NCBI GenBank assembly: GCA_030248295.1
Contig: JASANH010001278.1
Span: 365,501 to 429,500 of the forward strand
Length of the DNA: 64,000 bases
Origin: Mesodorylaimus sp. YZB2_4
Taxonomy: Eukaryota > Nematoda > Enoplea > Dorylaimida > Dorylaimidae
Reading direction: 5' to 3'
Below the pieces are notes generated by a model. It was not told the origin of the DNA. It ran no database searches and worked only from the letters and a program-made list of their open reading frames with translations. A program made the translations under genes and the position numbers. Shown here piece after piece: positions 386 through 49,690 of this stretch (the stretch's first letter is position 1; each line of letters opens with the position of its first letter).

Positions 386-1105
386 CATCAGAACGTAGCA
401 AACTCCATCGTCGTCAAGTGACTGTACCGCCCGAGAACAACAGTCGAACTCGTGTCCTTAAAAAAAACATCGTTTAAGAATGTTTTCGCACGGTGACAAG
501 GCCGCCTTTAAAAATTTTATCCAATCTAATAGTTGAGGATTCTCGCGCAAAATCATGCGCATGTAAAGCATTGCCGATTTATCAGTGCGCGGGCGCATCA
601 TTGGGGACAAATATACAGTGAACAAAGAATACAGATCGTCAATCGATTTCTTGGTTTGACGTCGATATTTTTCAGAAATTTTTGATGAAATTTTGACGTG
701 TTCTCTGACAAAAGTTTCATTAAAGTATGTTTCAGCGCAAATGGACACGTTCGAGAATGGCAGGGCTTCGACATTGAAGAAGTCAGTGATTTCGTCCTTG
801 TAGGAATTCCTGCGTTCCCACCAGCCAGCAATATTTTGATGCAAGCAGAAAAGACAGAATGCAGAAAGAATAAGCAAGACTATCTTGAAAAAGTGGCTGA
901 TCCACGTGATTTTCTCGCCAAATGCTTCTTTCCAGCCCGCAACGCTTACTTTCTCGACCAAGTCATCGTAGGCCCCATCGAGCTCAGTTTTGTTCGAGTT
1001 GCACTCATCATCAGGTTTGCTAGTGCTGGCCATTGGTCCACTTGTCGTTTTCAAACTGCTGTACATTTTTGTAATAGAATCAAGTACAGTAGAAGAGGTC
1101 AACTG
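386..1105 (-). pseudogene. DEG/ENaC (degenerin/amiloride-sensitive) channel N-terminal exon with in-frame stop
   Basis: The exon encodes the cytosolic N-terminus, first membrane helix and start of the extracellular domain of a DEG/ENaC sodium channel. Visible marks are a cytosolic stretch ending AGWKEAFGEK, a helix rich in I/L/F (about 25 residues), then LPFSNVSIC, matching the family's FPxVTxC signature after TM1. Further on come C-x(5)-C and G-x-x-F-x-C followed by GVCYVLM, matching the conserved G-x-C-Y-x-F-N region, and a GT donor (GTAAGT) just below 386. An in-frame TAA at 458-460, beside a run of eight T on the coding strand, sits between CFF and GHEFDCC, where the family has Asn/Lys/Arg; the same frame stays open to the donor. 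An acceptor (ctcag) at about 1106 suggests an upstream exon; otherwise the first ATG is at 1064-1066. The rest of the gene lies beyond the left edge. It is either a pseudogene or carries a sequencing or assembly error in the homopolymer. Family assignment is fairly sure; status is not. Confidence 0.75.
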
Positions 1106-1106
1106 A

Positions 1107-1900
1107 GCAGACCCGTCGAAATATTATTTATTTTTGACTATCTGGCTCTTTTTCGGTCATTTATCAAGAATTTTTCAGCAAATTATCAAGTGGTGACTCA
1201 CGATCTTGGTCCTTTAATCAGTTTCGCATTCAATACAGGTCACGTGGAAATCGACCGATATGGGGCATCAAACTTCTGTTCTGTAGTTTTATTCGTGTAG
1301 GGAGAGCATCTGTCTGGTATGCAATATTACCAGTAAGAAGCAATTCTCAGTTGCTGGATACTCCGCCTATCCGACTGTTCACAGTGGAGTACATATACAG
1401 TCTGCCTACACTATCTGTCGTGCTAGTAACTAAGTGTTATTACCATACCCTGTCGGGTGTCCACCGGGAAGGGGGAACTTTAATTTTAATAACAGGCTCT
1501 CCTGCTCCCTGAAGGTGGTTACATATTCAAATAAAGATAATGCAAATCGCGAGGACCAAACCCTTTGTGTCAGTAACAGTAACTAACTATATATTGACCC
1601 TATTATTGGGCCATGTCGGGAAATTGGTTTTGTAAAACGTACAGTAGCTTGTAGAGTCTCGACTCGAATATGTCCACTGTATGGGGCCTATTCTGTGGCA
1701 GGTCCCTTCGATTGTGTCCCTCTGAGCCCTTTTAGTGAAGACGATTGAGGACTCCAGCTTCGCTAGTCGACCTCGCTTCTGCATCTGACAATGGGTCCCT
1801 TCTGGGTGTACATGTATGTAGAATTTTGCTTGTCAGTTTGAAAAAATTGTGCCTTGAATATTTCAGTCATCCTGGACTTTTTTTGCCAGTTATGACTGTA
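1107..1900. other. Spacer without recognised genes
   Basis: Between the degenerin exon and the candidate exon at 1901. Short frames on both strands show no family motif, signal peptide or splice structure. Nothing else was seen. Confidence 0.4.
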
Positions 1901-3726: not shown

Positions 3727-6700
3727 CTAAATTTTTGTTTCCTCATCTTCACTACTGAAAACAATTCGAACCGCCTCCGAGGCGTTAGCTAATTTCAAAT
3801 CGCGCAAAAGACACAACCTTTCGTTTCTCGATCCCGATCCCGTGCCTGATCCGAATCCATTCGTGGAGAACGCCAGTGGCTTGTGAAATCCAGGATGCAT
3901 GATTAACAATGTGTTGTCAATGTTGCAGATATCAGAAACTGATTGAAACGATTCTTGCGACTGGTTTAGCCGGAAGACGCTGTCGTTGCTTATGTCTGAA
4001 AAAGCTGCCAGTTAGACTGTAAATGGCTGATGAGACTGTTGTAATACGAGTTGGTCCGTATTACTGGAGGGAGCGACTGGTGGAGCTTTTGAACCACGCC
4101 AAAACCCCAGGGCAGCCTACCGAGCCCTCCGACATAGTACATGGCTGAAACGTCACCCTGACGGGTGACGCTGACGCTGACGCTCCCAGCTGCTGGCTCC
4201 GTGCAGAGTATCAATTGCCAGTCGAACCTCTACACTGTTTGCTCTTCTCAAAAAATTCTAAAGCATATTGACCCGACTGGTAAAAAACATAAAAATCAAT
4301 CCTGGTATGATTTTCGATGGAACTATTAGCCAGCAAGGTCAAAACCACACTTTTTTATGTCCGTGCCTATTTTTGCCGACCTGCCGACTCCAAGAATTTT
4401 GCTAGTGTGCTGTTAAGCTAGTTTCCGTTTAAATTTTGACCAGAAAACACAAATGGTTTAAGATGACACGCCTTTTTGGTTTTTTTTTTGTAGTCAAAGA
4501 GCGCGTCTTAACTTTGTCTTTGAGGTAATAGAGATAAAACGATTGGCGGTCACAAAAAAACTTAAATTGCTTTGAAAAATCACTTACAATCCAAAAACGC
4601 CCAATCGAGCAAATTCTGACATGGAAATAAATCCCTGTGATCGGCCAGCAATCGTTGGACAATTCCCCGCACTTGATCCAAGTCCGTCTCTGATTCCACC
4701 GTGATGTCACCAACGTAGACAGCTGAAATTAAAGACCAAAATAAAAAAACGAGATGAAAGAGGACAAAAATGAATACCTGATGCCAACAACTGATTTGTA
4801 TCTTGCTTATTGGCATCGTAATCATTCTTGCTGACAACAGCCACTGGCAAACGTAGCAAAACTGACGTATACAAGGCTCGAGCGCCGCATATACTACCCG
4901 GATCGCTGTTAATCAATGGGGCGTGCGATGAGCCGCGACGACTTTGCGTCTAAAAAAAATCAAGTGTAAAAAATTTCATGTAAAATCAGTAAAAAAAGCG
5001 CACCTTCGTTGAGATCCTTTGCAACATTGGCACTCTCGAATGGAAACGCATTTCAATCACTGAAGGCGCTAATCTGCATGGTTCGCCATCGACTTGAGCA
5101 GGAATCGCTTTGCGCGTGACAATTTTCACAACTGAACATTGCGCGATACGCTCGCCACGACCACCAACTTGAAGGGCTGCCTAAAAACAAGGTAGTCATG
5201 ACAATGGGCGCTAGGGTCGCTGATTTTTTCGTGGTTTCGGTAAGAGGCTCAAAATGTAGTGCTGTGTCTAGCAGGCAACACAGAGCATGAGTTGCGGTGC
5301 CTTAGTTAAGGCGTTGGTCCCGCATTGCTTGGGCCAGCAACACTGACTGGGAAGGCCGCAGTTCTGTTCCAGCTGAGGACGGCAGTTTAGTAACCCCGTT
5401 CTCAGAGTGGGAACCGGTCTTCAACAGCGCTCTAGTAAGTCCGTCGCTGGCCCTGCACACCAGGCTCTGGGCGAATCCCCAGCACGGTCAAGTGGCCGAC
5501 GCCGACGAGAAGAGAATCAGGAAACTGGTTCCTGAAAACCAGTCAGGAAGGTCCCTCCGTTCTCGCCCAGTATCATCCTGGGACGCTGGTGCTGGCACAG
5601 GATGCCCTCGTGTGGAGGTGCTCCTAGTGAAGGACTCGCAGAGGGGAGCTGCCATGAGAGCTGGTCACCTCACAGCCTTGCTTATCATCATGACTGCTGG
5701 CCGGCTAATGGCAAAACAGTTCCAGACGCACGGCTACAGTAACAGTTCCAGCCGTCAGAGTTATGTTTCAGGGAAAGCAGGTTAGACTAATCGTAAATGA
5801 AACCCCAAAGACCACTCGCAGGTCTGTGGCTGTTCTGGCATTGCTTCGATATGGCATGGCGTCGCCACGACGGCTTTGGAAAGATTGGAAAGCGGAAAGC
5901 AGAGGAAGGCCGAACCCAGACTTCCAGTACCAACGGCGTAACTTAGTTTCAGATAAGAGTTGCTACTCATCCTAGCCTAGGCGTGTCAGCGGACCCACCT
6001 TAGTCTCTCACGGGACTCCAGCACTTATTATGAGGACGATCGATTGGTGACGCCATTGAACCAAGCCCTGACGCGTGGCACTCTCGCTGTGTCTCCTCCT
6101 GGTCAGGCATTTATACAGTAGACACAGAACTGATGCCCACCCACACATACCAACGTGGCTGACGTAAATCCCAGCACTTCCACGCGTCCATCGCTGTAGG
6201 AAGGTGGCGAAAATTGAGGCGAATGCGAAGGGCTACTCTGACCACCATGCTGATGGCCAGTCCCGCCTTGGCCACCGCTGGACGAAGATGGATGAGTGGT
6301 GCCCCAAGGCAATGTGCCCCCAGCGTATCGAGGAATGTTCAAGAAAAGCAAGCAATGCAATTTCAGCTCTTGCACTTTCCACGTCATATCCACACCATCG
6401 CAGTATATGGAAATATGTTCGGACAAATCTTTCCAAGTGCGCTTGAACAAATCTTTCGTGCCAATACCACCGTAGAAGAGGCGATTTTTCAGGCGACTAT
6501 TAAACACTTCAGGATTTGCACCTAAAAATTCAATTTTTTGTTGTTCCGCTTGCCGCTTCAGAATAGCAGTAAAAAATGCAGCATCGAAACAGCCCGCTTT
6601 TTTTCTTCAAAAACGTATGCATGGGCTGGTCTTAAAAATTCTGATAAACACTAAAACTGCCTCGATAAACACTATGAAATCTATTCCTGCGAGAATGTCT

Positions 6701-30290: not shown

Positions 30291-30910
30291 TACACCAATA
30301 TGGCTTTGCCAGGACCCCCTAGGAAGACAACTGCTACTTATTAGGAGCACCTGCATCCGTGAAATATGAGTAAAATGATATACAAAATATTCGATGTGTC
30401 GACAGAAAACTGGTAAAAAGTTTATTACTAAAATGGATACAGACGTTGGGAAATTTGCTCATATAGACTGGGAGGAGAAGAAATTGAGTACATATCAGGC
30501 ATCGGTGCTTACGATGCGCGCGTTGTTTGAAATCCTATGATCTTATTCTCTTAAATGAGCTAGAACTGTTTTCATTGGAAGATGGTGAACATTCCTTGAC
30601 GACCTGCTGGGTTGATTCATGTTCATGTTTTACTGTGACACAAAGCAGCCGAAGCGTACTCACTGGGACAGAAACAAATATAAGATCAAATTTATTGCAG
30701 CTGTTCCAATAAAATATGCTGCATCTCTGCAGAATAACAAGTTTAAATTTACCGCTTTTATATCTAAAACCATTGGTACCTGAAAATCATACTCTTCACA
30801 TTGTACTGATAGGGCTGTCGGGATTCCCAGCAGAGCAGGCGAACGATCGAGCGAAAAGTGCTTGTCAAACCTTGACTAAACTCTTCGAGCATATCAACCA
30901 TTTCGTGATA

Positions 30911-32044
30911 ATGTCTCGCCCTTTCGACTCTGCCGCCCAACCAAGTACGCCTAAACCGTCCTCTCCACCGACTTTTTCAATAACATGGAAAATTGACTGG
31001 CAAGAATTCCGCGAACTCGCATCAAAAAATATTACAAAACCATTTATAACATCCCATAAAAATGTTGCTTTTCACTGGAAAACGGAAATGGCAGCTGGAA
31101 AAATCCAGCCTGGATTAAAATCGCGTAAATTCAGTTTTCGCTTGTTTTATGAAAACGGTCCTGTCGATATTTTAAAAAATTGTTCATTTCGCATGCGCAT
31201 CGTGAAGCCGGACGGATCGTGCATATCGGCATTTCGAATCGGTTTATTTAATGCCGAGAGAGGCGCGTTGCAAGGAATGGAAAATTTTGATGTTATGGAT
31301 TTGATCGAATTTCGAAACAAGTACGATCTAAACGCGTATTATCCGCTAGTCTATCGCATCATGATTAGTGTTCCGGCGTCCGCTTTTGATTATCACATGC
31401 ATTACCCGTTTTCTGGTGGCCTTCCATCTTGGCTCTCGTCTCAATACAAAGATATAAAAAACCCGAATTCAAAATATTCCGATATCCGATTGATGTCTGG
31501 CGATGGGAAAATATTTTATTGTCATCGAAACGTGATCGGTTTGCAATCGGAGGCTTTGGCGGCCATGATTCGCCATCCGACGACCGAAGATGAACAAAAC
31601 GGCATGTTTAGCTTTCCTTTAGTCAGTCATCAAGCCCTGCATGCGATTTTGGAATACCTGTACACGGGCGAAACATTGCTTACAGCCGAGGCATGCATCG
31701 TGGTCGAAGTAGCCGATTTCGCTGAACAATACGGTTTGAAAAAGTTGAAAGAATCTTGCGCCGCTTGCTTATGGGATAAAGCTGTAGAAAATTGGAAGGA
31801 CTGTATATTGATCGCTGCATTCTCAGACCTAAACAATGATTTGACTTGTTTGAAAGATCGCGCTTTTGATGTTTTGGTAGATAATTTTGAGAAAATACCA
31901 CCAGAACTACTTGAATTCAATCGTAGCTTCTCGAGCGGAAGAAAGAGCCGTCAACTTCGACAAGAAAATCCAAAAGAAGAGAATCGGCTGAGAAAAGATT
32001 TTTATCTTTTCATGTATCGTCGCGTGCAAGCTGTCCTTATTTAA
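30911..32044 (+). CDS. MATH-BTB protein (candidate Cullin-3 substrate adaptor)
   Basis: A single-exon gene of 377 residues. The MATH domain (about 22-155) starts FSITWKIDWQEFREL and should bind substrates. The BTB/POZ domain (about 188-288) contains YSDIRLMSGDGKIFYCHRNV and LEYLYTGE, typical of the dimerising, Cullin-3-binding fold. A short BACK-like helical tail (about 290-345) follows. The layout matches SPOP/BATH (MEL-26-like) adaptors of CRL3 ubiquitin ligases, which are expanded in nematodes. The start is the ATG at 30911, just before the MATH domain; the frame stays open to an upstream ATG at 30716, but that extension looks non-coding. The reading frame is intact, stop TAA. Basic C-terminus (SSGRKSRQLRQENPKEENR). 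The particular substrate cannot be told. Confidence 0.9.
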   Translation: MSRPFDSAAQPSTPKPSSPPTFSITWKIDWQEFRELASKNITKPFITSHKNVAFHWKTEMAAGKIQPGLKSRKFSFRLFYENGPVDILKNCSFRMRIVKPDGSCISAFRIGLFNAERGALQGMENFDVMDLIEFRNKYDLNAYYPLVYRIMISVPASAFDYHMHYPFSGGLPSWLSSQYKDIKNPNSKYSDIRLMSGDGKIFYCHRNVIGLQSEALAAMIRHPTTEDEQNGMFSFPLVSHQALHAILEYLYTGETLLTAEACIVVEVADFAEQYGLKKLKESCAACLWDKAVENWKDCILIAAFSDLNNDLTCLKDRAFDVLVDNFEKIPPELLEFNRSFSSGRKSRQLRQENPKEENRLRKDFYLFMYRRVQAVLI

Positions 32045-33400: not shown

Positions 33401-36400
33401 GTTGGATTCTTGCACGCACAGCACATTGGGGGAGGTCTTCTGCCCAAACGGATCCGAATTCGCATGCTGTGCGGCAAAAGTCAAAGATGAAGCCTGGGTG
33501 GAAATCTGGGAGTGTGTTGTTTATTTACTGATAGACTACGTAATAAACGTTGGTTCCAACGTTGGTTCCAACGCATGGATGCTATCAATGTCGCTCTCAC
33601 AGATAGTATTCCTCGGATACGGATTCGTCTTAAAAAAATAAACACCCTTGGATGACTCGGGAAGTATTGAATTTGGTCTTAGCAAAGAATGCGGCATATA
33701 AAAGTTGGCGCCGTAGCGGCGACTTGAGTGATCAGCAGCTATTCTTGACTTTGCGGCGGCAGTGTCGGGTTAGAATCAAGGAGGCGAAGTCGGAGTACAT
33801 CACGAAGACTTTCGCTGGTCGTTTTGGTCAGCTTTTCGCCAACTGTCACGTGACGACCGTTCTGTGCCTGACTTGCGACTCGACCGCGGCCACCCATTGA
33901 CCATGCCGAGTGAAAAATCGGCCATTCTTAACGATGCTTTTGCTAAGAATTTCAACACAACAGGGTACCTACGGACCTTACATGCCTCCTCCACTCGATT
34001 CTGATTACCCGAGAGATTATTCTGTGGCCCCCTCGCTCATTGAGAGAGAAATCCATCGTCTTCATGAAAACATTGCTCCTGGTGATGATGGCATCACTGT
34101 CCCTATTCTAAAGAAAATTGCGCCGCCCATCGCCCTAGCTGTGTCCATTCTTTTCACCCGTTCAATGGACAATGGAGAGTTCCCCTCATCGTGGAAATGC
34201 GCAAAGGTAATATTCCGGTCGGCAAGCCTGGTGGGGACCAGAGTTTGCCCTCATCGTATCGACCAATTTTCTTATTGCCGATCTTGTCTAAAGTCCTTGA
34301 GCGCCATGAGGACAAATTGCTTCGATCGTCCTTGCTTCTGTCTGACCAACAGCATGGATTTAGGCCGCGTCGTGGCACCAACGGGGCATTGATCCTTATG
34401 AGTCAGCGAATTCATGACTGGCTTCATGAAAATCAAGCTGGATGTGTGGCGGGGATCTACTTGGACTTGAAAAAGGCATTCGATCAGGTGCCTCATTCAA
34501 AACTCCTCGCCTCGCTGCAAACTGATCACAATGCATCGCCTAAATTGCTCCAGTGGCTTTGCTCCTATCTGATTAGACGCTCGCAAAGGGTGGAAGTAAA
34601 GAATTGTTTATCAGCGATTTTCACCTGTGCCCTTCGGGTGTTCCTCAGGGATCGGTACTCGGTCCGACCCTGTTTATTGCCTTTATTGATCCACTGTTGC
34701 GTCTCTTCGCCGATCGATTTCTTCAGCTTTTATTGCAAGCATATGCTGATGACTTGTGCTTGCTCGTCCCGGCAAAACGTCTGGAAGACGTGTCAGCTCT
34801 CGCACAGCCTGCATTGGATTTTATCGATCAGTGGATATTGAAATCAGGTTTTGAATTTAACGTGTCTAAGACTCAATGTATTTTATATTGGTATCGCTAA
34901 GGCGCCCTCGCATCTTCCCCCCAAGCTGTATCTGAATGGTCATCGTCCCGCCTTCGTCGATCAGATCAAATACCTGGGCGTCCTCTTCTCGGCTGATATG
35001 CGATTTTCTGAGCATGTTTCGACGACTGCCCGCAGTGCCATTGCAATGATTGGGGCGCTGACTAGGAAACTCGACCGCCATGTCCGCCCGCCCGTCCTCC
35101 AAACTGTCTATGACGCGTGCATCCGGGCGGAGTTGGAATATGGCGCTTGTGCCTGGGACCCTATTCTAATGTCGGCCATAAATGAGCTGGAGAGGGCTCA
35201 GAGATTGGCAGTTCGGCAATGCCTGCGCGAATGGGTGGTCAACTACGATGTGGGCTTTCTCAACTTGGCTGGAGTCGCCTGTATGATCGCCGCAAACGCC
35301 TGAAGCTGGTGCAATTTCACAAATTTTACTTTGGGCTCCACGATTTCCCCAATAATTTTACTCACATCACCCATCCCCATGCCACCAGAAACGCTAACCG
35401 GCATCAAGTTTTGTTGCAAGCAGATACCCGGCTTACGTATTCTAAAAATTTTTTATCGTCGACAGGTCTCTTGTGGAATAATTTGAGTGAAGATCTCGTT
35501 TTCTTTAAGTTTTCTTTTTTTCGTAACCGGGTTACTAAGATGACGTTTTCATGATTTGATGTTTTCAATTTCTTTGCAGACGTTTATTGTGTATTCATTA
35601 TCTGTGTCTGGGGTCCCTGAGTGTGCACAGGCGCTTGGCTACCAGTAAAATTGGATTGGATTGGATGTCCAGTCCAAATGTCCTGACAAAAAACAAAGGC
35701 AACAACCAAATTCATGTTTCACAACTGGTGACTGCAGTCTGCGACAATTTATACTTCGTCGCACACTGCTGGGCTTGGGTTTGGGCTTATTCATGCGGCA
35801 TCAAATAGTGTAGTATATTTTGAACGTTCCTTTTAATAATAACACAAGGTATCGATGAAATATTTAAAAATAATTGAGTCATTTAACTGCTCTTTCACTG
35901 ATGCGCCGGCAAACGCTGCTAGTTCTATCGCAGGACTGGAAATGATTAGTGTGCAGACATTGCACATAACATTTCTTGCGACAGGGTATCCACTTCCGAT
36001 TGCACATAGTGAGCACGCAGATTGGAAGTGGATACCCTGTCGCAAGAAATGTCATATGCAATGTCTTCACATTAATTATTTTCAGTCTTGCAGTAAAACT
36101 AGCAGCATTCGCCTGCGCATCAGTGAAAGAGCAGTTAAATGACGCAATTATTTTTAAATATTTCATCGATACCTGGAGTTATTATTAAAAGGAACGTTCA
36201 AAATATACTCTACTATTTGATGCCGCATGAATAAGCCCAAACCCAAGCCAAGCAGTGTGCGACAAAGTATAAATTGTCGCAGACTTCAGTCACCAGTTGT
36301 GAAACATGAATTTGGTTGTTGCCTTTGTTTTCAACTTCTGGACATTTGGACTGGACATCACGTAGTCTATCAGTAAATAAACCACACTCCCGGATTTCCA

Positions 36401-36928: not shown

Positions 36929-37835
36929 ATGGATAAAATCGTACTGTCGATTGTGCTGTTGTCTTGCTTGAGTGCTGCATTGGCTCGAGACGAGACGGCA
37001 GCGTGTCGCGATATCACTCGTCAAACGTGTAGTGGATTCCAGCAATGTTGTGCAAGCAAATGCGGTGGTCCTCACCAAACATCGTGCACCGAAGGTGGCG
37101 GCCGAATTTCCCAAGCCTCGTGCCAGTGTGAAGGAAGGTAAAGAAGTGTGCATAGAGGTATGCGAAATTACAAACCTTGAATGATGTTTAGAGGCGGCAG
37201 CATAAGTCACGGACAGACCACTGACCACTCGACAATTTGCCGCTTGGCTGCTGAAGGATCGTGCAGGTCGTTCAAGACCTGCTGCGAGAACCGCTGCGCT
37301 CGTCCTGCTCGTTTTAGCTGTAGCTCACGTGGCTCTAGCTTAACTGAGTCTGTGTGCCAATGCCCAGCCTCCAGTTCGTCCAGTGGCCATGGACAGTTCA
37401 TTCAAACCACTCCACGATACAGCAGTGGTGGATCCCATCATGGGTAAGATGTCAAAATTTGATCTGCTGATGTCGCTGGAGGTTTTGTGGGTTGTGGGTT
37501 TGGTCAATCGCGGTCAATGCACCATCGCCAAATTGTTCTCTTTGGATCCATCCTTCTACAAATACTACAAATTTTGACAACTTTGGTTCCCTGCGGTCAT
37601 CTGCTCTGTAAATCCAAGATATGAGACAAAATTTTCTATCCTTTTTAGTGGTGGTCTGCGTGAAACAGCCGGCGAAGAAGATTACACTCAAACCTGCACC
37701 CGCAATTATCGCGACTGCACCGCTTTCCGCTCTTGTTGTCAGAACAGATGTTCTGGTCGTGGTGTCCAAAGTCAATGTCAAGAAAGCGGGGGCCATTTGA
37801 AGAACACCATCTGCAAGTGCCGTGCGCATTTCTGA
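36929..37835 (+). CDS. Secreted protein with three eight-cysteine domains (cluster gene 1)
   Basis: Three exons: 36929-37137, 37192-37443, 37649-37835 (648 nt, 215 residues), both introns phase 2. Residues 1-19 form a signal peptide (MDKIVLSIVLLSCLSAALA), so it should enter the secretory pathway. Each exon encodes one domain with the spacing C-x(6-7)-C-x(5)-CC-x(3)-C-x(7-8)-C-x(11)-C-x-C, enough for four disulfides. Domains 1 and 2 are joined by a short Gly/Ser/His stretch; domains 2 and 3 by a Ser/Gly/His-rich linker. I do not recognise the domain: it is neither ShK nor the nematode DB module by spacing. Function unknown; a cuticle, defence or excretory-secretory role would be a guess. First of four tandem plus-strand genes. 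Confidence 0.85.
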
Positions 37836-38657
37836 TCGTCAGAATACGATAAACCATAAAAGTGCTTGAAACTCTATGATAAATTGTAGATAGAAATGTG
37901 AAGTAAAAAAAAGTAGGCTTTGCACATCTCATTGAATAAGGTGGATAGAAATAAATTCGAGCAAATTGTGGCTTGAGAGCTGTCCGGTGTCAACTGCAGA
38001 GAAAAACTTGTGCCTGCCTGGTCAGAGCCGATGGATCACGAGTAGAGTTTTCTAAAAAGTTCTATGTAGGTCTCTGACAGAAGAAATGTGATTGAAGCCT
38101 TCGCTGCTAAGAGCTAATTTCAATGTAATTTCCCTTGAGTGGTGATAAGACTTGGACTTTTATTCATTTCGCAGCACGAGGACTCCTATTGGCGAGGCCT
38201 GACGCTAATTCTGAGTTCTTGCCACTGCCGCCTTATAAGAATATCAGATGGATGCAAAACTTTGGACACGAAAAAACGAAGAAATTGTCATAATTTCTTC
38301 AGGGCTGCCTTTTTAAATGTGGGAAGAAAATTGCCTCGCAATCCTGTATCTGCTGATGAATTCAGGAATTTTCCCATGCTTAGCTGTCTCCAACGACAAT
38401 AGGTTGAGGCCCCAAATCAACCAGCCTTAGCTCGTGACAACTGAGCAGTTCGAATTGCTTTGCACTAAAGTTTTTGCACCCCAGTAAAACCCAACTAGCA
38501 CTCCATTTATCATTCCCACAGTCGACGAAGAGCAGCTGCGGTTTTTGGCCAGACATTACGACTTTCCCTGGGCTAGCTGAACTAAAAGTTTCTGTTTTTG
38601 TTGGCGAGGTTCAAGAAATTACGAAGCTAACAATTAGCTTGAGAAAGGCTGACAGCA
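37836..38657. other. Spacer between cluster genes 1 and 2
   Basis: No further eight-cysteine exon was found on either strand. It presumably holds the 3' UTR of gene 1 and the promoter of gene 2. Confidence 0.4.
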
Positions 38658-40111
38658 ATGAAAGTTTTGGCTATTTGCCTGGTTTTTACCATAATATTGC
38701 AAGAACTAAAAGCAGGCGAAGATCAATCGGCGCAATGTCGAACTGGGAGTCGAACGGAAGATTGCAATAGTTTTGGTCGCTGCTGTGCCCGCCATTGTCA
38801 AGGCCCTCATGACTCGTCGTGCACTGAAGATGATGGGAGAATTGTGGCTAGCAATTGTTATTGCGAAGGGTATGCACTGTACACTGCAGATTTAATGATT
38901 TCACTTACTGCAGCTTACTGTGGTACTGCTTCACTGCACTGCACCACACTGTGCAGTGTCACAGCACTGATGCAGTGGCACCATTGCAATCACAGAACTC
39001 AGCCTGGTTTTTTGGATCATTATCACTGCATACCTAAAATGTTACGCTGGGGTCCATTGTCTTGTTGACCATTGTCTCATTTTAGCAATCCTCAAGATGG
39101 CGAGCAGAATATTGGCCTGGGCGACCTGAGCCGCGAAAGCGAGCAGACGTCCCCTGGTCGAAGAGGCAGTAGCGGTGGCAGTGTTGGCCACAGGGAGGGG
39201 TCGTTCGGTTCTACTGGGGGTCGACGAGAAAGCCAAGGCAGCATCAGCAGTGGTTTCGGCACAACGTCCTCCAGTTTGAGCGGTGGTGGCGGTTTTGGTA
39301 GTGTGGGCGATCACGCGAGTATTTGCAGGACCCGATCGCGTACTTGCGCCGATTTCATCAGCTGTTGCAATAGTCAATGTCCGAATCCACTGAGAGTTTC
39401 GTGTGCGCCTGGAGAACTGTATTACGCAGTGTGCCGGTGCCCTGGTGATGTGAGTATTGATAGTGAACGGCCGCTGAGTCCCACTGGCAGGCCAGGGTAA
39501 GCTATCGCCGGCAGATCGTGCTGAACTTAACCTGTGATATCGGGATCATAGACTTATCCCCACTTGAGCTACAACTAATGTTTCAGGTCAATTCGAGACC
39601 CGATTCGCGACCCGGGTGCTGATCACACAGCCTCGTGTAAGATTACAGCCAACAACGATTGTCTGGAATTCAAGCGCTGCTGTTCGACCACATGCGAACG
39701 AAAATATTCGTCTCGATGCAGCGGGGATGGCCGTGGTCGTCTAATGAGCGCCTACTGCCGTTGCACAACCACCACCACAACGTGAGTGTTTCCATTCAGA
39801 GCATCTCCTACTCATGATCTGGTCTTAACCATTCCTCTATGTATCTACACATTTCCAGGACGTTCGGTCGTCCTGGCTCTTTGTCGGACCCACCTCGACG
39901 CGGCGGTGATCCACTGCCTCCTCGCCGTGATACAATCGGAGGCGGTTTCCACGACCACTCCCAAACGTGCCGCGACCTGGCTGTGGGTGGATCGTGCGAC
40001 TCGTTTCGCTCCTGTTGCAACACGCGTTGTCGATCGGGTCGCAATCAAGATCAGTCGTGCAGTAGTCGGGATGGAAGGATAACTACTGCTGTGTGCACTT
40101 GTACTGATTAG
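38658..40111 (+). CDS. Secreted protein with four eight-cysteine domains (cluster gene 2)
   Basis: Four exons: 38658-38869, 39086-39496, 39587-39781, 39859-40111 (1,071 nt, 356 residues); all three introns are phase 2. The signal peptide is MKVLAICLVFTIILQELKAG (about 1-20). Each exon carries one domain of the family motif C-x(6-8)-C-x(5)-CC-x(3)-C-x(7-9)-C-x(9-12)-C-x-C. Exon 2 opens with a roughly 75-residue Gly/Ser/Arg-rich linker (GSSGGSVGHREGSFGSTGG), and exon 3 ends in a run of threonines that continues into exon 4. The longest member of the cluster. The linkers suggest flexible beads-on-a-string modules, perhaps O-glycosylated at the Ser/Thr stretches (inference). Function unknown. Confidence 0.85.
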
Positions 40112-40554
40112 CTGGTTTCAATACTCTAAAATTGTGTCTTTGATTTTTGGAAAAAGTAGTAGGTATCTTTGTGAAAACGAGGTGCTTTTCGGTCGTATTT
40201 GATATCTTTGCGCAATAATGATTTCCATAAGCTCTAGTGGTTCATACTGTTCAGTACCTCAAACTCTTAAACATACTAGCACAGTTTTACTTCTCACTTA
40301 GTCCCAACCACAGAATCATAGGCCAAACATTCTTCCCACGCACTTCTCTTTGAAATATGACCACGTCGAGAGCACGCGCTGGGGCAAGATCAACTTATCA
40401 GTTAAGCAGAGGGTAAAACTCTATCACGTACACCAGCCACCGGCGCGGCTAGCAGAAGAAAATTTTAGGCTTCACTCAAAACAGATCGCTGGCCCAACAG
40501 CTTATACCACTGAAAAACTAAGATCTTGCTCGCCTACTGTAACTCGAGAAGAAA
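40112..40554. other. Spacer between cluster genes 2 and 3
   Basis: No extra cysteine-domain exon seen. Likely the 3' UTR of gene 2 and the 5' region of gene 3. Confidence 0.4.
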
Positions 40555-41118
40555 ATGCAGTCGCTGGTGCTGGTATTTTGTTTATTAACCTGCATTATGC
40601 TGATTGTACCATCGAAATCAGATTTGTCATTGACAACGTAAGTCCAAGCAATTTGCATGGCTTGTATGAACAACAATTATTGTGCTCATGATTTTGCAGT
40701 TCGTATTCTTGGTTCGAAATATATGGAAAAAACATGCACTGTTTGGACTCTTCCCACACTTCTACACTACATGAGTCCATAGTATGGCTATTCAGACAAC
40801 ACCTGTGCAGGAAATGCGCCTTGCAGAGCCATCCTCTACCTGCACTACTCCACATTGTGCTGTGCACTTGAACGACATCTGCACTCAATTCTCAATTCTC
40901 TTTGGTATTTCAGTGAAAGGAGCGGCTTGCGAGAAACTGGCGATCATGGCGACGCGGATTATACTCTGACCTGCAATCGAGCCGGCCGCGACTGCACAGC
41001 TTTCAATCGATGCTGCAACGAAAGGTGTTCAAGGCGCGACGCGCGCATCGATGCCCGCACGTGCAACGATGGGCCTGACGGATTGAGCAATACTCTGTGC
41101 AAATGTCGAACTGCATGA
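40555..41118 (+). CDS. Secreted single-domain eight-cysteine protein (cluster gene 3)
   Basis: Two exons: 40555-40637 (signal peptide, MQSLVLVFCLLTCIMLIVPS) and 40914-41118 (one domain); 288 nt, 95 residues, phase 2 intron (AC|T). The domain follows C-x(6)-C-x(5)-CC-x(3)-C-x(10)-C-x(11)-C-x-C. Exon 2 is clearly related to the last exon of cluster gene 1: both start GLRET, have YTxTC then DCTAF, and end with NT-(I/L)-CKCR near the stop. That suggests gene 3 arose by duplicating that exon behind a new signal-peptide exon, or by loss of internal exons. Here the signal-peptide exon carries no domain, unlike the other three genes. An unrecognised exon in the 276-bp intron is not excluded. Confidence 0.75.
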
Positions 41119-41639
41119 TAAAACTCTGCATTCTGGTTTGGATAAAGTAGTAGCGATTTCAGCTTTTTAGTAGATGAGTGATTTTTTAAAATGCAGCATA
41201 ATCCTGTAGAAAACATTTTTCACTCGCCCTGTCTTGTCTCGTGCACTTTCTCGAGAAATTTTTTGGGGTAAGCAAAAGCAGCTCCTTTTAAAGCATTATT
41301 CCCGCATTTCCGTTCCTGACCTGGTCATGCACTTGGTCTCGACTAAAGCCCGGGGCCTGCAAATGGTCAGCATGCGGTACATAATTTACTCGTCTGGCAC
41401 AACAACCTTTGCACTCACAAATAATTCAATCTTTCCCATCCACCCCTGCCCTGACTCACTCTTCCCTCGCTAGTCAGTCACGTCTGAATTCTAAGTCCGC
41501 CATGGCAAATATAACTGTAAGATTGGTGCTTGCGCCTGGCATTCACTGTGCTCCATACAAGACCGGAAATGGTGTAACCGAAAGGCCTGGTAGGCCCCAT
41601 GGCATGTGGGAGAGTAATCATCTCCCTAGCTGGAATACG
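41119..41639. other. Spacer between cluster genes 3 and 4, left part
   Basis: Includes an inverted partial R2 repeat at about 41580-41640 (CCATGGCATGTGGGAGAGTA mirrors the R2 3' part). No coding feature seen. Confidence 0.4.
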
Positions 41640-41880
41640 TCAGCCCCTCAGGTTGGCGGTTCAGACGCAGATATTGCCGCCCAGCTCCCCTCTGGACTTG
41701 CAACCCGTCATGCCTATAGCCTGCAGCCACGGTATGATCGGCGAGGCCATGAGGTGACCAGCTCTCAAGACAGGCTCCCTACTCCAGTTGGACCCCCCTT
41801 TCGAGGGCATCCTGCCAGTACCAGCATCCCAGGATGATACTGGGCGAGAAGGGGCCCTTCCTGAGTGCGGTTCGAGAACA
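41640..41880 (-). mobile_element. SINE-like element fragment (minus copy)
   Basis: Reverse complement of part of the 5280-5720 element. Shared blocks are GCGAGGCCATGAGGTGACCA, GAGGGCATCCTGCCAGTACC and CCAGGATGATACTGGGCGAG. It lies between cluster genes 3 and 4. No clear Pol III box in this copy. Confidence 0.6.
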
Positions 41881-42386
41881 CTGCCTTGATTCTTTCTACC
41901 CAGTCAGCGTCCACCGCTACTTGCAAGACTTGCATTGCTGCGGTCGCAGTTTTTGCTTCTCTCTTGGTCCTGCCAGGTTAGGTCACAGTGGCATTCTCTC
42001 AGACACCATTATGCGATCCGCAAAGTGTCAGATATAGAATATTCATGTCTCACGAGTCAGTCAGTGAACGGGAGTCATGTGCATTCAAGTCAGTTTTTTC
42101 AGCGACAAAGCATTCTAACACTGTCGTTTTTATGCGCCAAAGAAAATATCACAATCGCTCACACGACTAGCGCACAAATTTTGGCAGTAAAACAGTTGCC
42201 TCTTGTGATAACAAAAGACCAATGCGAAGCGCTCTATCATTTTTCAGTTCCTCCAGGGAAAACAATGGGAGACAATATATCTTGCCACTATAGGCGCTAT
42301 CCCAGCATAAGACACTGCTAGAAGTGCATTTAGTTCGCTCAACTCGGCTTTCAATTCGCACATTTCTCCTAGCTAACGACGCGAAA
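41881..42386. other. 5' region of cluster gene 4
   Basis: No coding feature supported. The likely promoter and 5' UTR of gene 4 are in its last part. Confidence 0.35.
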
Positions 42387-43096
42387 ATGTGGACATCAGC
42401 GTTCCTATGTTGTATTTATTTTCAAATAGCATTATCGGCGCCATCAGGCACGACCAATTCGTGTTTGGCATCGGAATATCAAACTTGCAATCGTTACCAG
42501 CAATGCTGCGCTAATCGATGCGGTGGCCAATACGAGTCATCTTGCTCGGAAGAGAATAATCGCGTTCAGACGGCCTCGTGTCATTGCAAGAATTTTGGGT
42601 CAGTGTAATGAGTGCTTCCACAAAATTCTCTCAGCTGAATTTTCAAATCTAAAGGGGGTTACTTAGTAATGAACCAAAATTTCCTCAGTTATCCTGTTAG
42701 CCCTGCAGTTTACACAGCCAGCCTTTGACCAGGCATTATCAGCCAAATCATTGTGCTGCCCAACTTTCTTTTGATAAGCCAGAAACATGTGAGTTTTATG
42801 GCAAACAAAAAAAGCAGCCTCAGTCTACAGAAAATGTGATTTTTTGTTTTAGGGCTGTGCAAGTTCGAGTCACCGAGCCACCAACTTCCCATCATGGTAG
42901 TGGTCGCAACACAGGCACTGTTGGTGCCGGCAGCAGTGATGCTAATCACGTGTGCCGCACGCGTGTGGGCACAACTGGATCGTGCGACGCGTTCAAGCAG
43001 TGCTGCAGGAACCACTGCGCCCGTGGATACAGTCACTTCGCGTGTAGCGCGACCAACAATCGCATCTCGTCCTCCACCTGCACTTGCGCTCCTTGA
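42387..43096 (+). CDS. Secreted protein with two eight-cysteine domains (cluster gene 4)
   Basis: Two exons: 42387-42598 and 42853-43096 (456 nt, 151 residues), phase 2 intron (GG|G) with a GTCAGT donor and a T-rich ttttag acceptor. Signal peptide MWTSAFLCCIYFQIALSAPS (about 1-20). Domain 1: C-x(7)-C-x(5)-CC-x(3)-C-x(7)-C-x(11)-C-x-C; it is closest to domain 1 of cluster gene 1 (CC-(A)-x-(K/R)-CGG and SASC-like ending). Domain 2: C-x(9)-C-x(5)-CC-x(3)-C-x(8)-C-x(11)-C-x-C. A Gly/Ser/His linker (SHHGSGRNTGTVGAGSSDA) separates them. The first exon is the same length as that of gene 2 (212 nt) and 3 nt longer than that of gene 1 (209 nt). Last gene of the array; function unknown. Confidence 0.85.
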
Positions 43097-45375: not shown

Positions 45376-46639
45376 GCGTGTCACAATTTGTTGCTACATA
45401 GCTGCACATGACCTTTCTTTGCCCTTTTCTTCTGGCATAATGTACCCGCATAAAATATGCAGAGCCAAAAGAAAAATGAGTTAACACATAAGACATAATG
45501 TAGTTTTTAAGTCCGCTTGGTGGCTGAAACATAATCCCAATAGTTTATGTGCTAAGATGCGGCTCCTTTGAAGGGACGCTTGCCAGTCGAACCTTTACAG
45601 GATTACCTGACATTGTAGCTATGATGATGATGATGCCACCTGTGGCCTGTAGATTATTTAAGTAAGCGGGTTCATCCGGCTTGGGACGTTGACTTTCTTC
45701 TGCGGAAACCCAACATACTGTACAGGAATGTGGCAAACAATTATTCTTGTGGCATATAGACTATTATCAGGGTTTAAAAAGGGTATATTCAAGCCAACTT
45801 TGACGTGACTCCTTGGCCAGATGATAAAACGACGCTGCATGCTCTCTTCTTGACTTTTATGCAACAGGGCCTTTGAAAAGCCAGCCTGTTAGGACAATTC
45901 GTTCCAGGACAAAATGACGCATGAAAGGCCATTTTCAAGCAACAGGGACAAACCAATTTGTACTTCAAGCAGGATTCGTGAAAATCAACGGATAGTCGAT
46001 AATGGGTGGTTGTGACTTCATTGCATGCTTTTTTAGATTTTAATCTTCAAAAATTTAGTTCAGTGTGCAGCATTGCTGCTGTGGCTCGAACTTAGAAATT
46101 CTTGGGTGTTACGCGGCGCGCCGCAGATAATGGAGCATACTCAGCAATGTTGTGACCCCATACTTTGACGACGAGGCGAACAATAAGTCACCCCGTTTTC
46201 TAGCAAATATTCCTAATAGAAGTCATATACCCACATTTTCTAGATAGTTCTACAGTTTATCAGATAGGCCAAATGTGCGCCATTTTGTGCAGGTGATTAT
46301 AATATTCCCAGTTTGTGCCTTCTTCGTACTTTCTCAGAGCAATTTGCGAAGACGTTAGTTTCGTAATTACCGCGAATATAATTATGAATTTTAAATCTCT
46401 TGAAGATGAATTGGTAAGAACTCGTTGATTGTATGCGCAAGCGCTCTTTCAGAAGTTTCTTTGCAGAAAATCTCCTTTTATCATGCTTTGTGCTGAGGGG
46501 TTTTTGCAAACTGAGACAGTTTTCTCTTAAAAAAACGAGCACCTTGAGACAATTAGACCAAGTGCATAAATAGCGAGTAACTGGATTAGTTTTTGCAAGC
46601 TTTGGGTGATAATTGATTGAAAACTCGCTCATAAAGAAC
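45376..46639. other. Spacer before the intact chemoreceptor gene
   Basis: No gene seen; presumably contains the promoter of the receptor at 46640. Confidence 0.4.
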
Positions 46640-47626
46640 ATGAATAGCTCTGGTAACACAACCATTGTGGCACTGATCGACTTGACATTTGGTGTAACAT
46701 TCGCTGAACGTTATTTGCAATTCGTCGTTTACATGGCCTTTGGTATTAGCGCATTTGTGGGCAATGGATTGATGGCATTCGGCATTGTCGAATCAAAAGA
46801 AATGAGATCCCGATTCTACATTATTATTTCTTTTTTGTTGATATGTCGCGTCCTTATGAGCATGCAGCTTATGTTTCTGGCCACCTATCGATTTCTTCGA
46901 GTTTTAGATGTCATCAATTTTTCATCAAGACTCGTATGCGTATTTTTAGGAATTTTTGTGTTTCCAGGTACCTTAGAATTATTACTGCTTTTATACTTGG
47001 CTATCGACAGAGCCATTGCTTTGTTCGCTGTCGCTTTTTATCAACGTTTGACCAGGAGGCAAGCTGTGAGAGTATGTGCAGCAATTACCACAATTTTGTG
47101 TATTACCAAAATCGGTCTTATATTTGGCGTCCCTCCGCTATCGGCAACAGTCACATGCTTTTCGGTGTTTGACGGCTTGCCAACAAATGTTGTTCCTTTT
47201 AGTCAGAATTTTGACATGGCTTTGTTGCTTTTAGTATTGTCAATATATATTTCTATTTTGATAGCTCTGGCCCTCCGCTTGCACAAGTCAAGGGCATCGA
47301 CGGATGACGAAGCAACCCTGGCAGCACTGACCAGACACATGTCGGTTATGCCTACAACCAGAAATATTATTATTGTCCACTGCGCTTGGACATTATCGGC
47401 TAAAATTTTACTAAGTTTGGGCACAATGCCATTTGCGGTAGCTTATTCTGCCAGATTCGTTCTTTATGGTGGATTTTTCGTGGCGTCTGAACTGTTTGTC
47501 AACGTCGTTGTATTACTGTACACTAACACAGAAATACGAAAGGTTACTTTCTCGTGGTATCGAAAATCAAGCAGTCGTACAGTGACGCAAATGGCAGCGG
47601 GCGAAGCAGGTGCGATCACTAATTGA
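46640..47626 (+). CDS. Seven-transmembrane receptor, nematode srsx-like
   Basis: A single-exon rhodopsin-class receptor of 328 residues. The N-terminus has two N-glycosylation sequons (NSS, NTT). TM1 is about 27-50 with the family GN pair (VGNGLMAF). TM2 is about 58-83 and TM3 about 100-125, with a Cys at 100 for the usual disulfide and AIDR at 121-124 in place of the DRY motif. Later helices follow, with a short basic tail after TM7 (YTNTEIRKVTF). This matches nematode Srsx and related serpentine chemoreceptors, which act in sensory neurons. The reading frame is intact. I chose the ATG at 46640; the open frame runs nine codons upstream but without an ATG. It could instead be a peptide receptor; the ligand is unknown. 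Confidence 0.8.
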   Translation: MNSSGNTTIVALIDLTFGVTFAERYLQFVVYMAFGISAFVGNGLMAFGIVESKEMRSRFYIIISFLLICRVLMSMQLMFLATYRFLRVLDVINFSSRLVCVFLGIFVFPGTLELLLLLYLAIDRAIALFAVAFYQRLTRRQAVRVCAAITTILCITKIGLIFGVPPLSATVTCFSVFDGLPTNVVPFSQNFDMALLLLVLSIYISILIALALRLHKSRASTDDEATLAALTRHMSVMPTTRNIIIVHCAWTLSAKILLSLGTMPFAVAYSARFVLYGGFFVASELFVNVVVLLYTNTEIRKVTFSWYRKSSSRTVTQMAAGEAGAITN

Positions 47627-48759: not shown

Positions 48760-49690
48760 CGATTTCTAGCGATCATCAGCATTTAAAAACAAGTAGTACC
48801 TCCTTATTCTTGATAACTGCCTCGAGACGACTGGGCATACTGGCAATAAATTTTCAATCAGTTCGATCGGCACGTTCTCGCAAATTATTTTTAAGCGTTC
48901 CCAAACTTGATCTAAATTCGGAAACTAAAAATCACGCAGTTTTTTCTCGCAATAAGCCCACCAATTCTCGAGCGGATTTAAATCTGGACTTTGCGGAGGC
49001 CAATCAGCAATAAAACTTATCGCTTGCTTTTTCAACCAAGATATCGATGATTCTGACGCGTGGCACAGAGCGCCATTTTGCATGTAGATGCAATCGTTCT
49101 TGGGATTATTGTCGTCGAGATATGGAACCAGATGATCCCGCATGACTTCTTGATGGACCCCGCTATCGATAGTAATCCTGGCTGGCACTCGATACATTCG
49201 ACTAACCCCTTTCCCGCTAAAGTAGGCCATACCATTACACCAGCCGCATTTTTGACTGTTTTGAACTCGGCAGTCCGATCGATATTCTTCAACCTTTCTT
49301 CTAATACATCTTTGCGTGTCATCGGAGATGATGCAAAATCTGCTTCCGTCCGACCAAACTACCGATTTCAAGAAGGCGGCTGACTTCGAGCGATATTTTT
49401 TGCCCAGGCTAATCTCTTTTTGTTGGCTTTCGATAACATAGAAACACGTCGGTATTGTCGGACATTCAAACCTTGTTCTTTCAACCGTCTTCGAACGGGA
49501 TCTCGACCTAATTATTGTCCATTCGCTGTTTCAAAGCGCCTTGACAAACTGGGAAGGGATTGCTTGCGGTTTGACAATGCTTCGCATTTCAACATTCCAC
49601 ATTTTTGTACACTATGCTCTCCACGATTCATAATAACGAGCCAGCGACTGATGCTGAATGATATTGTGACGAAGAGTGGTTCTTTTCTGT
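48760..49690 (-). pseudogene. Tc1/mariner transposase relic
   Basis: Minus-strand remains of a DD(E/D) transposase. In order: RRLKEQGLNVRQYRRVSML and KKRLAWAKN (about 49380-49500); VVWSDGSRF carrying the first catalytic Asp (about 49360); VPYLDDNNPKND; MQNGALCHAS, where the usual second Asp (MQDGAPCH) is Asn and Pro is Leu; then WPPQSPDLNPLENWW with the last catalytic acid. An in-frame TAG at about 48925 separates LRDF from FPNLDQVWERL, and a frame change lies near 49372. It is therefore inactive. The C-terminal part ends near 48760. Terminal inverted repeats were not identified with confidence. Confidence 0.85.

Follow-up and report, generated by a model that had tools for sequence, protein, structure and literature searches.

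A 64,000-nucleotide stretch of the nematode Mesodorylaimus sp. YZB2_4 (hereafter the window; C12:365501-429500 in an assembly of 145 Mb and 1067 contigs) carries four adjacent plus-strand genes whose products are built from ten copies of one eight-cysteine domain, and we are highly confident that this domain defines a real, conserved and apparently uncatalogued family in nematodes. Our explanation as a whole, in which the cluster is a tandem branch of that family, with a core like that of the cysteine-stabilised alpha-beta (CS-alpha-beta) proteins and a role in the matrix or surface coat, is one that we favour by a little. An earlier note, written from the letters of the window alone, had presumed a nematode host, which is confirmed by the 133 matches to Col_cuticle_N (the cuticle collagen N-terminal domain) in the assembly. 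With exons joined at GT-AG boundaries, the four genes are as follows (P0001-P0010 are related proteins from outside this genome):

36929..37835, plus strand: g1, predicted secreted three-domain protein of 215 residues (D1-D3); exons 36929-37137, 37192-37443 and 37649-37835; 48-69% identical to eight relatives, P0001-P0008, over 94-100% of length
38658..40111, plus strand: g2, predicted secreted four-domain protein of 356 residues (D4-D7); exons 38658-38869, 39086-39496, 39587-39781 and 39859-40111; 55% identical to P0009 through all junctions
40555..41118, plus strand: g3, predicted secreted single-domain protein of 95 residues (D8); exons 40555-40637 and 40914-41118; from sequence reading, exon joining and hydropathy
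42387..43096, plus strand: g4, predicted secreted two-domain protein of 151 residues (D9-D10); exons 42387-42598 and 42853-43096; 70% identical to P0010

Each of the ten domains has all eight cysteines, in the arrangement C-x(6-9)-C-x5-CC-x3-C-x(7-11)-C-x(9-12)-C-x-C, and spans 39-45 residues from Cys1 to Cys8 (more in some distant members). The ten domains lie on the four genes where the earlier note had placed them, and its spacing formula holds for all intervals but the fifth, which reaches 11 residues (in D8) and not 10. A slightly looser regular expression, run over six frames of the window, returned exactly these ten domains, and 60 first-order Markov sequences of 64 kb contained no match to it. 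The third residue after Cys2 is phenylalanine in nine of the ten domains and tyrosine in D9. The domains, given with flanking residues and placed by pattern match and alignment, are:

36986..37135, plus strand: D1 of g1
37220..37369, plus strand: D2 of g1
37677..37826, plus strand: D3 of g1, the domain used for the fold model
38718..38870, plus strand: D4 of g2
39306..39446, plus strand: D5 of g2
39618..39770, plus strand: D6 of g2
39950..40108, plus strand: D7 of g2
40954..41112, plus strand: D8 of g3, among window domains closest to D3 (52% identity)
42444..42593, plus strand: D9 of g4
42935..43093, plus strand: D10 of g4

All seven introns begin with GT, end with AG, are of phase 2 and lie outside the Cys1-Cys8 spans, separating one domain from the next or the signal peptide from a domain, so that exon shuffling could move most domains with the reading frame intact. 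Hydrophobic N-termini are present in all four window proteins, by a hydropathy count rather than a signal-peptide predictor, in keeping with the signal peptides that had been claimed for the four genes.

The window cluster forms a tandem branch of a larger family, which extends beyond this locus. Protein searches of the genome with ten family members as queries (six of them found en route), after which the hit sites were read, gave at least 19 genes and at least 32 domains on nine contigs, the window included; these are lower bounds, because the search scores only the best candidates. A second cluster of eight genes and eleven domains lies on contig C21 at about 744-810 kb, while single genes are found on C78, C399, C16, C56 (three domains), C479, C35 and C68. 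The three-domain, hydrophobic-tailed members at C56:559301-560245 and C479:47633-48577 are 98% identical; a recent duplication or an unmerged haplotype of a single locus may account for the pair. Distant members were accepted on weak E-values (0.0047 for C78, 0.048 for C399, 0.041 for C35, 0.19 for C56 and 0.0067 for C68) together with the cysteine pattern, a hydrophobic N-terminus and the shuffle test given below; the C21_744 frame has no hydrophobic N-terminus and perhaps a further exon. A genome-wide DNA pattern for CC-x3-C was uninformative, with 9,800 forward and 9,936 reverse matches against 5,520 and 5,563 in a reversed control.

The family appears in two forms as regards its C-terminus. 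All nine C21 and C78 proteins carry a C-terminal hydrophobic stretch (best 12-residue mean hydropathy 2.2-3.2), and such tails were also seen by eye in the C16 and C56 proteins, while the four window proteins and C399 have none (best 12-residue mean hydropathy at most 0.36). Judging from their sequence, the tails are likely glycosylphosphatidylinositol (GPI) signals, and part of the family is probably membrane-anchored. For these GPI-like members a Ly6/three-finger domain was considered and dropped, since the modelled domain, which is a window domain and not a GPI-like one, has helices.

Since eight cysteines at fixed spacings could also arise by convergence, the distant domains were scored against shuffles in which the cysteines were held, with a profile of 40 window and P domains and 200 cysteine-fixed shuffles for each distant domain (the three C479 domains and the C68 domain stood outside this test). 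For 17 of the 18 distant domains at most 13 of 200 own shuffles scored as well, i.e., at least 187 were beaten, and only C21_810 was not separated, with 51 of 200; since similarity searches had supplied the distant members, the comparison serves as a check rather than a blind test. When the ten window domains were aligned with ten distant ones by hhalign, the probability was 94.2 and the E-value 1.1e-7 over 40 columns. An aromatic residue, F or Y, is found three positions after Cys2 in 58 of 58 domains (53, plus the C16, C56 and C35 rows). In the 52 regular domains, C-x3-C is present in 51 (x5 in the other) and C-x-C in all, an invariance that is partly built in, because the extraction patterns demanded CC and C-x-C; looser patterns, with 3-8 residues from Cys2 to Cys3, found no spacing there other than the usual one.

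Outside this genome, a protein search over 5.8 billion predicted proteins gave the eight relatives of g1 and one clear relative of g2, and a second search with a two-domain alignment, in which the 7,992 candidates sharing most words were scored, gave the relative of g4. No relative of g3 was found in three protein searches, none of them using g3 alone, and the last of these, with a GPI-type profile, recovered only P0010 and no relatives of the anchored branch. The longest contigs of P0001-P0010 measure 0.6-1.4 kb, and these proteins read unbroken across the intron positions of the present genome, which supports the exon joins of g1, g2 and g4; it also suggests that the source contigs are transcripts, though the source labels do not say so, and that genes of the family are expressed. 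A domain tree (52 columns kept, 6 of 48 inner branches well supported) was used only for orthologue pairs, namely D9 and D10 of g4 with P0010 and D5 of g2 with P0009. As relatives are present in public sequence, there is a fair-sized chance, somewhat short of even, that the domain is already annotated elsewhere without a name, whether in an uncharacterised orthogroup of nematodes or as a nematode domain known outside Pfam; against this, no description of the family was found in the literature searched, which consisted of open-licence papers. The nematode antimicrobial groups named in one paper (cecropins, CS-alpha-beta, diapausins, nemapores and glycine-rich peptides) do not obviously include it (PMC10506718).

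Among 23 proteins scanned by hmmscan against Pfam, with matches listed up to E 10, no family reached its cut-off (P0010 and five genome members, C21_780, C21_744, C21_810, C479 and C68, were outside the scan). The earlier description of an unrecognised, secreted and repeat-expanded family is supported. The families from which the earlier note had set the domain apart, ShK, DB, EGF, Kunitz and TIL, were not listed for any of the 23 proteins up to that value, with HMMER filters dropping most weak matches. NCBIfam gave no match for the three of ten relatives that were scanned, and sequence searches of the PDB gave nothing below E 1 with g1 alone or with alignment A7, and nothing with alignment A1. 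Insulin has CC-x3-C-x(7-10)-C, and hevein has eight cysteines with CC as the third and fourth, and both were dropped as candidates, since neither came up in Pfam and their remaining spacings differ from those of the domain.

It may be argued that the domain is distantly homologous to an established family of small disulfide-rich proteins (PcF-like, WAP or knottin) and that this was missed as short cysteine-rich profiles score poorly, an explanation that we regard as improbable. The recurrent match below cut-off is PcF (PF09461), listed in all nine relatives scanned (P0001-P0009), with a best score of 19.5 bits against a gathering threshold of 25 (E 0.0013, P0007) and at most 14.5 bits for window proteins; in the PDB, too, the 24-row profile A8 reached no sequence but PcF (2bic, E 0.0077), and this over profile positions 3-29 of 52, without Cys6-Cys8. 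The PcF/SCR proteins and the nematode domain have in common an F-x2-CC-x3-C stretch with its preceding cysteine, and both are small, secreted and cysteine-rich, whereas the aligned stretch is without Cys2 and stops before the hairpin cysteines, covering half of the nematode domain. Furthermore, PcF, a family described as specific to oomycetes, has six cysteines (PMC7327169), and the shared motif sits in a helix in our model of the nematode domain. We take the shared stretch as convergence or a very remote link, and not as membership. WAP (PF00095) was listed for only one of the 23 proteins, that of C56 (E 1.1, 10.1 bits, gathering 20.8). WAP domains share the eight cysteines and the C-x5-CC-x3-C spacing, with two further cysteines before it and one after at x3, while the nematode domain continues instead as Cys6-x(9-12)-Cys7-x-Cys8. 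Conotoxin (PF02950) was listed twice, for g3 (17.2 bits, E 0.01) and for one C21 protein (16.1 bits), without reaching its gathering threshold of 25.1; thus, none of these families attained a curated cut-off.

The AlphaFold model of D3, made with the ten-row alignment (predicted local distance difference test, pLDDT, 90.3; predicted template modelling score, pTM, 0.69), is a confident one and has the order alpha-alpha-beta-beta: a short helix comes first, then a long one, then a beta-hairpin. These elements appear three times in the model of P0001. In the D3 model, C-x3-C falls within helix 14-25 and C-x-C within strand 40-48, and the position of Cys2-Cys5 in one helix explains the fixed spacings. 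The eight cysteines presumably make four disulfides, in which the long helix, with Cys2, Cys3, Cys4 and Cys5, would be the hub: Cys4-x3-Cys5 of the helix would bond Cys7-x-Cys8 of the last strand, Cys2 would bond Cys6, and Cys1 would bond Cys3 and so pin the extra N-terminal helix, the result being a CS-alpha-beta-like core extended by one helix and one bond. In a crude simulation of 24 helix-hub pairings, the proposed pairing reached the lowest single energy and was ahead by a small margin; for either of the two hairpin registers, its median over 4-5 runs was also the lowest.

The signature of CS-alpha-beta proteins is a cysteine-stabilised helix (PMC5116183). Its helix carries C-x3-C, and a strand carries C-x-C. 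Sequence and model together place both motifs of the nematode domain accordingly in helix and strand, the bonds being predicted, and in this the modelled domain resembles the CS-alpha-beta (defensin) core. The likeness to this superfamily (insect defensins, nematode ABF/ASABF, macins and drosomycin) extends to the order of predicted helix and beta-hairpin, to the position of C-x-C in the last strand, to a cysteine in the first strand and to the nature of small secreted modules. The bonds of the CS-alpha-beta reference array are C2-C6, C3-C8 and C4-C9, to which the pairing slightly preferred in the crude simulation is equivalent, and a GXC gamma-core at the first-strand cysteine is usual, not universal. 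The nematode domain, in contrast, has an extra N-terminal helix, an adjacent CC in the helix, tandem domains on linkers and GPI-like forms; in the alignment no GXC is present at Cys6 in any of the ten window domains, and the cysteine that ABFs have after C-x-C is missing. No significant sequence or fold match to CS-alpha-beta proteins was found, and Foldseek searches, one with the three-domain model and one of viral proteins, yielded no match with an E-value of 0.001 or lower. Weighing the model against these results, we consider a CS-alpha-beta-like core more likely than not. To go further is speculative, and we think it doubtful at present, but the family could have radiated in nematodes from a module that derives from CS-alpha-beta proteins and gained an N-terminal helix, pinned by a disulfide. 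A free peptide would thereby have become a reusable extracellular domain, which phase-2 exons repeat in tandem in secreted proteins and which GPI-like tails display as one, two or three copies.

As for function, domains of g1 are 40-86% identical outside the cysteines to those at the same position in P0001-P0008, while D1, D2 and D3 are only 17-26% identical among themselves, and this is more in keeping with fixed and distinct roles than with an arms race. Of the linker residues in g1 and P0001-P0008, 69% are G, S, T or H, and the linkers vary in length (P0002 has a twelve-residue linker unit three times); fixed, distinct domains on flexible linkers suggest a multivalent extracellular binder or scaffold. 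The secreted proteins would then be beads on flexible Gly/Ser/Thr/His-rich linkers, each bead with its own partner, and the GPI-like relatives would display this module at the cell surface. We rank a multivalent role in the extracellular matrix or surface coat first, as a tentative proposal.

Ranked second, and in our opinion unlikely, is a secreted defence family, in which derived antimicrobial CS-alpha-beta modules would act on microbes of the gut or cuticle, by binding or by disruption. The strong position-by-position conservation just described speaks against it, as does the missing GXC gamma-core, while the helix C-x3-C and strand C-x-C signature, the alpha-beta-beta order in the model and the tandem duplication of the genes would suit it. 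Free-living nematodes have also been reported to possess expanded sets of antimicrobial peptides (PMC10506718); however, the ten window domains are not uniformly cationic, as their net charge (K+R minus D+E) runs from -4 (D4) to +4, with signal-peptide residues included in the D1 segment.

Several other elements were seen in the window. Just upstream of g1 lies an inverted repeat (35690-36000 / 36021-36331) with 311-nucleotide arms, 93% complementary and separated by a 20-nucleotide gap, which has the look of a foldback element or a miniature inverted-repeat transposable element. The peptide RPVSSWDAG is common to frames at 41661-41903 (minus strand, between g3 and g4) and 5306-5785 (plus strand, near the window start), and thus a dispersed repeat may sit between g3 and g4. 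An open frame at 34089-34841 (plus strand) matches reverse transcriptase (RVT_1), the adjoining frame 34842-35303 matched nothing, and a frame at 48925-49530 (minus strand) resembles DDE_3 transposase. The 3' side of the cluster holds a Srsx-type chemoreceptor, a G protein-coupled receptor in a single open frame (46613-47626, plus strand); further frames encode a BTB/POZ protein (30713-32044, plus strand) and a weak match to amiloride-sensitive sodium channels (458-1123, minus strand; ASC, 24.9 bits with a cut-off of 23.6). Rfam and tRNA scans of the window gave no matches.

Apparently, we are dealing with a new family of a familiar kind, that of small disulfide-rich extracellular modules, whose link to CS-alpha-beta proteins is testable. 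A curated domain entry would unite the at least 19 genes of this nematode with relatives in other worms. If the CS-alpha-beta-like core is true, a defensin-type scaffold would have been recruited as a modular, surface-anchored building block, and if the matrix role is true, the surface or cuticle proteins of nematodes would gain a new class.

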